DNA of 9,802 nucleotides, from the NCBI GenBank assembly GCA_021160245.1, contig JAGHCW010000191.1:1-9802 (forward strand). Direction: 5' to 3'. The notes beneath the pieces are model-generated. The model had not been told where the DNA came from. It worked only from the letters and a program-made list of their open reading frames with translations, and made no database searches. Of this stretch, positions 1 through 9,802 are shown piece by piece. Source of the DNA: a bacterium (GTDB lineage: Bacteria; B130-G9). Both the position numbers and the translations under genes were made by a program. Position 1 is the first letter of the stretch. Each line of letters begins with the position of its first letter.

Positions 1-1202
1 CCCCCATACCCCCCACCTAAACTGCAAGTCTTTGATCCATCGAGCGGCGCTGAGACTTCTGGCCAGTAGCCAAAATTGGAGCCCATAAGCACGTCATTTC
101 TATCAACCCCGGCGACCGCAAGCACGCTCGGGTAAGCGCCGGGATATACGGGAAGGAAGACTCCAGAATTGCCAGCGACCGCGAACATCAGAAGGCCGTT
201 GTCCCGGGCGTATTGAAACGCAGCCAGTCCGGTCTTTGAGCAGCGATAGTACCCCCCAAAACTCGCCTGCATCACTCTTGCCCCGTTGTCCGCGGCATAC
301 ACAACATTTCTGGCGCCCATAAACTGCTGCGGCTGATATTCATAGACGGTCGGCATAACCGACGCCTTCCACAAAATGCCGGCTATGCCAATACCGTTGT
401 TGCCTCGCGCCGAATAGACAGAAGTGCAAGCCACGCCATGCCCCGCAAAAGGCAGGAATGGATCGCATATATCTGGCGTGTCTGTGGAGAAGTTCCAGCC
501 GTGAATGTCCCCGGGGAAGCCATTTGTATCGTATTCCGGCCCATTTTTCTCCTCCGGATTATTCCACATCGAGCCCATAAGATCAGGATGATCATCCGTG
601 TAGCCCCCGTCTATCGCACAGATGACAATGTTGGTTGAGCCCGTGGAAATCGCCCACGCCTCGGGGCAGTGCATCTGCCTAAGCGAATTCTGCTCGGGAA
701 ACAGGGGATCATCGGGCACGATGTAATCATCTGTCGAGATGAGGCCATACTCCGGCGGTGGTGGCTGGTAATCCTCGCCATAATCGACTGGTGGCTCAGG
801 CTTGAATGGTTGATATATTGCCTCGGCCCACACAACGCCTGGGGCCTTGCTGAGCCAGTAGGCGGCGTCCAGGGGGTTCTCTGACCGTGGCAGAGTGAAT
901 CTGTATATTAGCGCCAGATCGACGAAATCGCTGCTTCGACTCCCGCCCTTCGAGACACTCCCTCCATGTCCCGCAAACACTCGCTCAACCGGGCCACCAT
1001 CGAGCTGCACGCGCATCGCCTCAAGCTCAGCTAATTTGAATTCCCCATCAATGACCGCGGGCGCGACACCACGATCGCCCTCTGGCAATAGCGCCACCAC
1101 AATATCAGTAGCAATCGTTACAGTAGGCAGCAGACTCAGACAGAGCACCAGAGCCATAAACTCGACTGCACAAAAATCAGCAAGACCTTGACGCATTGGC
1201 AT
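1..1202 (-). CDS. Secreted subtilisin-like (peptidase S8) serine protease, C-terminal part beyond window
   Basis: Four hundred codons are open from ATG at 1202 to the left edge. Residues 1-32 look like a Sec signal peptide: Arg4, then a hydrophobic stretch (about 12-30) ending near TIATD. Residues 33-130 resemble an inhibitor-like propeptide, followed by a Pro-rich linker (134-150). The S8 catalytic domain begins around 160. Asp198 lies in the AIDGG motif before HPDL, His255 in GHGVAC, and the oxyanion-hole Asn345 in AVAGNSG. The Ser motif (GTSMA type) would fall left of the window. The spacing of these blocks, and motifs such as WNNPEE and GNNGIGIAGI, are typical of extracellular S8 proteases. 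Oddities are DGG instead of DTG and HGVA instead of HGTH. Start: GGAG lies 4 nt before the ATG; another in-frame ATG lies at 1196. It is separated from rtcB by about 470 bp with its own promoter candidate. Probably an exported protease; substrate unknown. Confidence 0.9.
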   Translation of the reverse strand, partial: MPMRQGLADFCAVEFMALVLCLSLLPTVTIATDIVVALLPEGDRGVAPAVIDGEFKLAELEAMRVQLDGGPVERVFAGHGGSVSKGGSRSSDFVDLALIYRFTLPRSENPLDAAYWLSKAPGVVWAEAIYQPFKPEPPVDYGEDYQPPPPEYGLISTDDYIVPDDPLFPEQNSLRQMHCPEAWAISTGSTNIVICAIDGGYTDDHPDLMGSMWNNPEEKNGPEYDTNGFPGDIHGWNFSTDTPDICDPFLPFAGHGVACTSVYSARGNNGIGIAGILWKASVMPTVYEYQPQQFMGARNVVYAADNGARVMQASFGGYYRCSKTGLAAFQYARDNGLLMFAVAGNSGVFLPVYPGAYPSVLAVAGVDRNDVLMGSNFGYWPEVSAPLDGSKTCSLGGGYG

Positions 1203-1404: not shown

Positions 1405-1413
1405 TAATGTGAA

Positions 1414-1427
1414 TTGTCTCACGACAA
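1414..1427. repeat. Inverted repeat TTGTC-N4-GACAA just upstream of the -24 element
   Basis: TTGTC at 1414-1418 and GACAA at 1423-1427 form a perfect 5-bp hyphenated dyad with a 4-nt centre. It is centred about 43 bp upstream of the predicted start site, a plausible spot for a regulator. It is short enough to be chance. Confidence 0.3.
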
Positions 1428-1454
1428 AGGCCTAAGAGCCGCCATTTAGCCGAC

Positions 1455-1471
1455 GGCGCGCAAAGTGCGCC
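1455..1471. repeat. GC-rich hairpin, 7-bp stem with AAA loop
   Basis: GGCGCGC (1455-1461) pairs with GTGCGCC (1465-1471) with one G-U pair and a 3-nt AAA loop. It lies about 200 nt downstream of the rtcB stop. No T-run follows on either strand, so it is not a standard intrinsic terminator. It may stabilise an RNA 3' end or be a protein-binding dyad. Confidence 0.4.
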
Positions 1472-1502
1472 CGGATACTACACCTATGCTTACTCTCGCA
1501 AG

Positions 1503-1520
1503 TGGGTCTATTTTGATCCA
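1503..1520 (+). promoter_or_regulatory. Repeat element A: TGGGTC-N6-GATCCA, possible enhancer/operator
   Basis: TGGGTC (1503-1508), 6-nt spacer TATTTT, GATCCA (1515-1520). With flanking bases it is an 8-bp dyad (1501-1508 with 1515-1522, one G-T pair). It is centred about 133 bp upstream of the predicted sigma-54 start site, within the range usual for enhancer-binding-protein sites. The same asymmetric sequence recurs at 1582-1600 and 1609-1626. Confidence 0.5.
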
Positions 1521-1524
1521 CTCT

Positions 1525-1536
1525 CGAGGCGCCTCG
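1525..1536. repeat. 12-bp perfect palindrome CGAGGCGCCTCG
   Basis: CGAGGC directly abuts its reverse complement GCCTCG. It lies between repeat elements A and B. With no loop it is more likely a DNA-level dyad than an RNA hairpin. Function unknown. Confidence 0.4.
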
Positions 1537-1581
1537 CTTGCCTTTCGCACGCTGATTGCCCTTTAACAGACAATCTGCAGC

Positions 1582-1600
1582 TGGATCAATAATTGACCCA
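1582..1600 (-). promoter_or_regulatory. Repeat element B: TGGGTC-N7-GATCCA
   Basis: On the minus strand: TGGGTC, a 7-nt spacer (AATTATT), then GATCCA. All 12 half-site bases match element A, including the same internal dyad mismatch, and TTGATCCA is shared as an octamer. It is in the opposite orientation to A, so A and B together form a long-range inverted repeat of about 19 bp around a 61-bp centre. Centred about 213 bp upstream of the predicted start site. Confidence 0.5.
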
Positions 1601-1608
1601 CCCCCTTC

Positions 1609-1626
1609 TGGATCAAATCAGAGCCA
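1609..1626 (-). promoter_or_regulatory. Repeat element C: TGGCTC-N6-GATCCA
   Basis: On the minus strand: TGGCTC, spacer TGATTT, GATCCA. It matches element A at 11 of 12 half-site positions with the same spacer length. It lies in the same orientation as element B with centres about 26 bp apart, and ends 47 bp downstream of the rtcB stop codon. Confidence 0.45.
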
Positions 1627-7006: not shown

Positions 7007-8380
<1,374 letters not shown>

Positions 8381-8406: not shown

Positions 8407-9802
8407 TCATGCTTCAGGCGCAGATCCGGGCCAGCTCTGTGCCCCGGGCAACTCAATCATGAACCTAGTACCTTTAGGCACGTTGTTTTGAACTCGAATA
8501 TATCCATTGTGGTCCTCTATTATCCTCTGAACAATGGCCAATCCGAGACCTGTGCCCCGCTTCTTGGTTGAGAAATAGGGGAGAAACAGCTTGTCTTTGC
8601 TCTCGTGATCAATCCCTTTGCCATCGTCGGAGACCTCTATACGAACTATCTTCAGCACGGGATCATAGTGGGTGGCTATCTCTATCGTGATGAAATCCGT
8701 TGCCGCCTCAATAGCATTCTTTATCAGGTTCCGGAATACTTGCTTCATCTGCTCGACGTCGATATTGGTCTGCGGGACGGAGTCGTCGAATAAGAGCTCT
8801 ATCTTCGCATTCTGAAGACTGCCGTCATAAAGGGCAATGACATCGGTTATTACCTTGTGGATATCGCCCCGGCGCGTGTGAACTGCGGGCATTCTGGCAA
8901 ACCGCGAGAACTCGTTTACTAGGAGTTTCAGGCCGTTGATCTCCTGGATTATCGTATCAACGCATTCCTTGAAAAGACCATCCTGGTCCGCACCCAGCTT
9001 CCCAGCCTGCTTCTGCAGCCTCTGGGCATAGAGCTGAATTGGCGTCAGAGGATTCTTGATCTCGTGCGCTATCCTCCGAGCAACCTCTCGCCAAGCGGCT
9101 GCCTTCTTCGCCTTCAGAAGCTGGGACAGGTCCTCAAACACCACAACAAAGCCCATGTCGCTATCTGATGTGTCTCTTAAGAGTGTTAGTGTTGTAAGAA
9201 GCGCTCTCGTATCCCCTCGAACGGTTACATGACACTCGCGCTCTCGGATGTTCCGCTTCGTCTTCAAAATCGTGTGAACCAAATCTCCAAGCTCTTTGAG
9301 ATCGGGATCAAAGAACACATCTTTGTAATCACGTTGGACGCAGCGCTCTTCCTTCAAGTTTAAAATTGAGAGGGCTGCCTCATTAACAGTCGTTATCTTG
9401 CCTTTGATGTTGAGCGAGACGACCCCGGTGGCAATGTTGGACAAGATCGCCTCCATGTGACGCCGACGACGGTCGTAGTCACGGCTGGAGCGGGACAGTT
9501 TGTTCTCCGCGTTGTCCGCCGCCGTCTTGCTAGCCTTCAAATCGGCGGACATCATGTTGAACGCATTCAACAATAGCCCCATCTCGTCGTCGCTCTCGCC
9601 GCTCAGAGAAACGCCTAGCTCACCTCTTGCGACCGATGCAAGCCCATGCAACAACATCTCAACAGGCCGGGTCATCATCTTAGCGACATAAAAGCCAAAC
9701 CAGGTCGCGGCAAATATGATCAGTAGTGTCAAGATCAAAACGAGAAGCACGTATGTCGCCTGCCTCCCCTCCTGCTCTGCTGAAATCAGCCTGAATCGGC
9801 GG
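8407..9802 (-). CDS. ntrY: NtrY-like membrane sensor histidine kinase, N-terminus beyond window
   Basis: 464 codons are visible, open to the right edge. The GTG at 9750 lies inside the membrane helix and is not the true start. Numbering from it: transmembrane helix (about 1-22), HAMP linker (23-75, TRPVEMLLHGLASVARGELG), coiled coil (75-98), PAS domain (about 100-215, ILSNIATGVVSLN), HisKA H-box with phospho-acceptor His229 in HEIKNPLTPIQL, and HATPase_c with N-box NLIKNAIEAA (341-350), G1 SDDGKGID (374-381), F-box PYFST and G2 GTGLGLAIV (399-407). The domain order and H-box match NtrY, the partner of NtrX; the missing part should hold further transmembrane helices and a sensing region. It stops 26 nt before the activator gene, so the two form a classic kinase-regulator pair. 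The signal sensed cannot be told from this window. Confidence 0.92.
   Translation of the reverse strand, partial: RRFRLISAEQEGRQATYVLLVLILTLLIIFAATWFGFYVAKMMTRPVEMLLHGLASVARGELGVSLSGESDDEMGLLLNAFNMMSADLKASKTAADNAENKLSRSSRDYDRRRRHMEAILSNIATGVVSLNIKGKITTVNEAALSILNLKEERCVQRDYKDVFFDPDLKELGDLVHTILKTKRNIRERECHVTVRGDTRALLTTLTLLRDTSDSDMGFVVVFEDLSQLLKAKKAAAWREVARRIAHEIKNPLTPIQLYAQRLQKQAGKLGADQDGLFKECVDTIIQEINGLKLLVNEFSRFARMPAVHTRRGDIHKVITDVIALYDGSLQNAKIELLFDDSVPQTNIDVEQMKQVFRNLIKNAIEAATDFITIEIATHYDPVLKIVRIEVSDDGKGIDHESKDKLFLPYFSTKKRGTGLGLAIVQRIIEDHNGYIRVQNNVPKGTRFMIELPGAQSWPGSAPEA

Follow-up and report, generated by a model that had tools for sequence, protein, structure and literature searches.

The window analysed here, G000:C63, is one complete contig of 9802 bp from a MAG of 3.43 Mb that is 95% complete, and its interest centres on the gap separating the 3' end of rtcB from the gene of an exported subtilase (Peptidase_S8). 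The subtilase gene, cut by the contig end, occupies 3..1202 on the minus strand, with the ribosome-binding-site-like sequence GAAGGAG before the ATG at 1202. In the same orientation, at 1404-1389, stands a predicted sigma-54 promoter, TGGCACATAACCTGCT, with TGGCAC as its -24 and TGCT as its -12 element and a start predicted near 1378; the -24/-12 promoter proposed in the initial annotation of this DNA is real in form. Further out in the gap are three elements, read on the minus strand as putative activator sites. Element A (1503..1520) is the proximal site, of an 18-bp class, and reads TGGATCAAAATAGACCCA towards the promoter and TGGGTCTATTTTGATCCA on the plus strand; element B (1582..1600), the distal site, is of a 19-bp class and reads TGGGTCAATTATTGATCCA; and element C (1609..1626; TGGCTCTGATTTGATCCA) is a third, outermost and optional site. 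Their centres lie 120.5, 200 and 226.5 bp, respectively, upstream of the -12 GC, within the usual 80-250 bp for promoters dependent on an enhancer-binding protein (EBP), element C being 26.5 bp beyond the distal site and starting 222 bp upstream of the -24 hexamer.

The coordinates that the initial annotation gave to A, B and C were right, as was its count of matching half-site bases (12/12, 12/12 and 11/12). It had also described them as three copies of one asymmetric element, a picture that has to be replaced by one of a proximal class (A), a distal class (B) and an optional third site (C). Similarly, GGG opposite TCC had been taken as the mark of true repeats; since relatives show fully symmetric palindromes at the same positions, this shared mismatch is local variation and does not define the sites.

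Within the window, the pattern TGGRTC-N6-GAKCCA with at most one mismatch yields five strand-wise matches against 0.23 expected, a number reached by none of 200 shuffles, and the distal consensus TGGGTCAA-N3-TTGACCCA with at most two mismatches yields one, element B, against 0.00 expected. The form of the promoter is by itself not significant: with at most one mismatch allowed, the window has three matches where 2.5 are expected. The elements could in principle be chance near-palindromes in a gap, and a single -24/-12 match alone is indeed to be expected in the window, but the shuffle tests, the specificity of the proximal-type sites and the scores of the promoter intervals (both given below) all contradict such an origin, the probability of which we regard as vanishingly small.

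Genome-wide tests, made as pattern searches with reversed-pattern controls, place the three elements in a recurrent module composed, in order, of an optional third site, a distal site, a proximal site and a -24/-12 promoter, TGGCAC-N6-TGCT. There are seven such modules in G000 and 15 in the three other genomes of the phylum, which belong to the same family. The proximal dyad is TGGATCA-N4-TGATCCA, often decayed in G000 to TGGATCAA-NN-TAGAGCCA. An 18-mer identical to A is found at G000:C142:14110 and, beyond this exact copy, near copies occur on contigs C142, C94, C224, C112, C191 and C104 of this genome; the pattern of element A with one to three mismatches, together with the exact second copy, gives 10 matches, whereas the reversed pattern gives 0, and throughout the G000 searches reversed patterns gave no matches or far fewer. 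Two or three sites accompany six of the 26 TGGCAC-N6-TGCW matches in G000, the other 20 being without sites; counted from the first base of that motif, the sites of the six lie at roughly -115 to -127, always close to either -116 or -127, and at roughly -184 to -198. The seventh member (C104), the promoter of which is the TGGCAT variant TGGCATGTTTAGTGCT, was recovered through its sites. Third sites are found 35-38 bp beyond the distal site at C142, C112, C104, G002:C37 and G001:C85, the offset over all members carrying one ranging from 26 to 38 bp further out. At C112 the asymmetric sites are flipped, while their positions are unchanged.

The search was extended to 98 genomes (G000 and 97 more, of which three belong to its family), and repeated site matches proved to be restricted to the family, the phylum being represented by the four genomes G000, G001, G002 and G003. 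The 15 additional sigma-54 promoters of the same geometry in the three relatives came from searches for the sites conducted without reference to promoters: in G002, 15 strict distal-type sites are spread across 12 contigs, 11 of which yield such promoters and one an orphan, and there are three promoters in G001 and one in G003. When 21 of the promoters are aligned and distances are measured from the -12 GC, the distal centre is 188-215 bp upstream, in most cases 197-207 bp, and the proximal centre falls into two classes, at 119.5-124.5 bp (17 promoters) and 131.5-134 bp (4 promoters), which differ by about one helical turn. A promoter match of at least 8/10 is present within a 55-bp interval in all 21 aligned members as against 2.8% of random intervals, and a 10/10 match in 14 of the 21 as against 0.4%. 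Across the four genomes, 23 of 24 proximal-type matches lie inside such promoters, with 0 for the reversed-pattern control, and the sole strict distal-type match without a promoter is that at G002:C251. The initial annotation had envisaged that copies might be spread at random or within genes, or be lost in relatives; almost all lie 100-240 bp ahead of a -24/-12 promoter, and the architecture is retained in three relatives, including upstream of a protease homologue on G002:C210 with the same sites and promoter. Likewise, homologues of the C104 gene in G001 and G003 have conserved sites.

The DNA between the sites is much less constrained in sequence. Spacer identity is mostly at the shuffled baseline, the exceptions being C63/C224 (75% identical), a few G002 and G001/G003 pairs; within G000, where only C63/C224 departs from this baseline, the geometry is thus kept while the intervening sequence diverges. 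These data bear on the possibility, raised in the initial annotation for positions 1502-1601, that A and B form the terminal inverted repeats of a MITE-like element of ~100 bp; a REPIN-like element is considered with it. Near-palindrome pairs 66-92 bp apart are indeed multi-copy, and the likeness of the C63 and C224 spacers would fit such an element, but most interiors are unrelated and vary in length by discrete steps, the copies keep a fixed distance from, and one side of, their -24/-12 promoters, the flipped sites of C112 have stayed in place, and no target duplication is seen. Single orthologous promoters, moreover, have been kept across genera (G000:C104, G001:C85, G003:C343). Multi-copy transposable units of 100 bp, for which the DNA between copies of the sites would be alike, are not what is found; the variable, unrelated interiors and the conserved promoter distance lead us to reject the mobile-element reading as very improbable.

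Base composition, on the other hand, is ordered in both spacers. In the window, the distal-proximal spacer (1521..1581, minus strand) has helically phased G+C/A+T and the proximal-promoter spacer (1405..1502, minus strand) is in helical phase with the -12 element. Over the promoters the G+C periodicity is 10-10.5 bp in both, with powers of 3.1 and 2.6 versus 1.26 in 227 intergenic control windows; the corresponding Mann-Whitney p values of 3e-7 and 1e-4 are to be read as guides, as the periodicity was noticed post hoc and the promoters are not wholly independent of one another. The phase of G+C is near-constant, with R 0.69 relative to the distal site and R 0.81 relative to the -12 element, rising to 0.74 and 0.85 when similar promoters are dropped. 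An EM search for a discrete second spacer motif returned only a diffuse GGCC/AT pattern, which is the 10-bp periodicity itself. The phased composition likely represents an encoded bend or loop. At sigma-54 promoters such as those of the orp operons, IHF or intrinsic bends between the EBP site and the promoter help looping (PMC3897727); the bend proposed here would be comparable in position, its signal differing in that it consists of helically phased G+C in both spacers.

The tie to promoters, the retention in relatives and the unrelated spacers together support the reading, already offered in the initial annotation, of the elements as enhancer sites of a sigma-54 activator. Given the sequence evidence, we hold it very probable that the three elements serve a single sigma-54 EBP as upstream activating sequences, the promoter concerned being that of the secreted subtilase. 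Protein binding, looping and activation, rather than repression, are what we infer for these sites: EBP dimers would bind the distal, the proximal and the optional third sites and, so bound, would nucleate an AAA+ hexamer; the helically phased spacer DNA would loop and so bring this hexamer to sigma-54 RNA polymerase at TGGCAC-N6-TGCT, and ATP hydrolysis by the EBP would open the promoter. Some sigma-54 promoters are known to have repressors or architectural proteins, which provide precedents for another assignment, in which the sites bind a repressor or other non-EBP regulator (e.g. an antagonist or a nucleoid protein) and the EBP binds elsewhere. Yet EBP sites typically are, as here, dyads of 18-19 bp in tandem layout and 120-240 bp upstream, repressors usually overlap the promoter, and the spacers contain no other palindrome of comparable information, so that on these sequence features we judge this assignment improbable.

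On the activator reading, the same module would control a small regulon within the phylum, most of its members encoding exported proteins and one a structured RNA candidate. A sigma-54 enhancer system is of a known kind; the motif and the regulon are new. We consider it reasonably likely that the promoters make up a phylum-specific sigma-54 regulon (exported proteins and one structured RNA) under a rigid promoter module, with two enhancer classes, one-turn spacing steps, bent spacers of phased composition and a previously undescribed activator site. This regulon has been defined from sequence alone for an uncultured phylum on which hardly any literature exists, the nearest named relative being Coatesbacteria, and its 22 promoters, with their discrete spacing classes and phase-locked spacer composition, would form a good test set for selection on DNA geometry in sigma-54 looping.

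The factors required for such a system are encoded in these genomes. The rpoN gene is present at G000:C176 and is found in three of the four genomes; G001 (95% complete) gave no Sigma54_DBD match, although it has many EBPs and, at three promoters, the module, and this is probably an assembly gap. G000 has seven full-length EBPs and one shorter, and six EBP orthogroups (C63, C53, C177, C86, C210, C165) are common to all four genomes, so that phylogenetic profiling cannot choose the cognate EBP. One candidate for the activator is the NtrX-like response regulator of the window itself (7007..8380, minus strand), which has a canonical GAFTGA and a Fis-type HTH, lies 5.4 kb from the sites and is adjoined by a histidine kinase (8407..9750, minus strand), the frame of which may begin further upstream. 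It is, together with an unrelated TPR-type EBP on G002:C210, the only EBP linked to the sites. The GAFTGA loop is canonical in all members examined of the window NtrX-like regulator and of the C177 EBP; in the C86 (GAYTSA) and C210 (GAFTDA) EBPs of G000 it is degenerate, which makes these two less likely activators. No convincing site was found at the EBP loci and, as no module member stands at an EBP gene, there is no clue from autoregulation. Five EBPs were scanned, and among the families listed none of the five reached a named NCBIfam equivalog cut-off.

How, then, do these sites compare with those of known systems? NtrC enhancers, as at glnA, consist of palindromes in tandem that precede a -24/-12 promoter by 100-140 bp or more, and activate by looping. 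The present sites are likewise tandem palindromes upstream of a -24/-12 promoter, but the NtrC box TGCACC-N5-GGTGCA is absent and there are two site classes of different length; the initial annotation was correct that the site sequences do not fit this box. Similar in its targets is the PEP-CTERM box of the PrsK/PrsR system, an EBP-type motif, sometimes repeated, combined with a sigma-54 promoter, which comparative genomics revealed in the long gaps that precede many single genes encoding exported proteins (Haft et al. 2006, PMC1569441). The likeness extends to the pairing of an EBP-type motif with a sigma-54 promoter before genes for exported proteins. However, motif 1 of that system has 17 nt ending in TTTACA and precedes the promoter motif by 63 nt on average (PMC1569441), as against TGGGTCAA-N3-TTGACCCA and TGGATCA-N4-TGATCCA at about 200 and 120 bp here. 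In a scan of five EBPs, of the response-regulator or PAS type, no score came up to the PrsR cut-off (TIGR02915) of 502.6 bits, the highest being 436; the EBPs of C63, C53 and C177 fell below it and those of C165 and C210 were not listed at E 1e-100. By motif, by distance and by the five EBPs scanned, the present sites do not conform to the PEP-CTERM/PrsR box. The sites of FlrA, DVU2894 and other GTCA-type EBPs, yGTCA-N6-TGACr (Kazakov et al. 2015, PMC4641369), share with ours an inverted repeat with a GTCA...TGAC core, and differ from the GTCA-N5-TGAC of the distal and the ATCA-N4-TGAT of the proximal sites, in which the outer TGG/CCA is also conserved. In the literature we found no described activator site that matches the motif.

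Most genes downstream of the module encode signal-peptide-like N termini, as judged by eye. The predicted exported-type targets include, besides the window subtilase, beta-helix proteins (C94, C112 and several in G002) and a PQQ-like propeller protein (C104), the protease being thereby linked to beta-helix and propeller proteins with which it is probably exported. The protein downstream of the G002:C348 promoter has no signal peptide, and at C142 the first reading frame appears only at +486. Protease homologues on G000:C76, G002:C378 and G002:C9 have open frames of ~1400 codons, and these paralogues are without sigma-54 module sites; a further homologue, on contig JAFGIT010000288.1, lies within an operon and is also without sites.

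The promoters of G000:C191 and G002:C288 and the second promoter of G001:C85 are followed by no clear adjacent sense gene. In place of such a gene, these three contigs have a conserved and strongly folding sequence, at L152:3867-4050 (G000:C191), L079:385-559, minus strand (G002:C288) and L128:1655-1838 (G001:C85), with a core, GGGAATGCTGCCGCGTGCC, that sits within a long branched hairpin; the folding z scores are -4.0, -1.9 and -2.8, respectively. It occurs once in each of the three genomes and in none of 38 other genomes searched, and is family-restricted. An Rfam search of these loci gave no match, and we regard the sequence as a candidate sigma-54-dependent small RNA.

Some minor features may be added. 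The orphan distal-type site of G002:C251 (L085:506-524), which lacks a proximal partner and a sigma-54 promoter, has a half-degenerate neighbour and is possibly a relic of a lost member. An Rfam search of the window likewise gave no match. Just past the predicted start of the protease transcript, positions 1356-1376 of the window form a perfect inverted repeat, TGGATAA-N7-TTATCCA, which has AGTCTATTTT and ATCCA in common with element A; it may represent a fourth, degenerate site or, alternatively, a 5' hairpin. A 12-bp palindrome, CGAGGCGCCTCG, is found in the spacer at 1525-1536 and again, similarly placed, in the C94 promoter spacer (L051). Finally, the 8-mer GAGGCGCC recurs across G000 near terminator-like hairpins and RNA stems.
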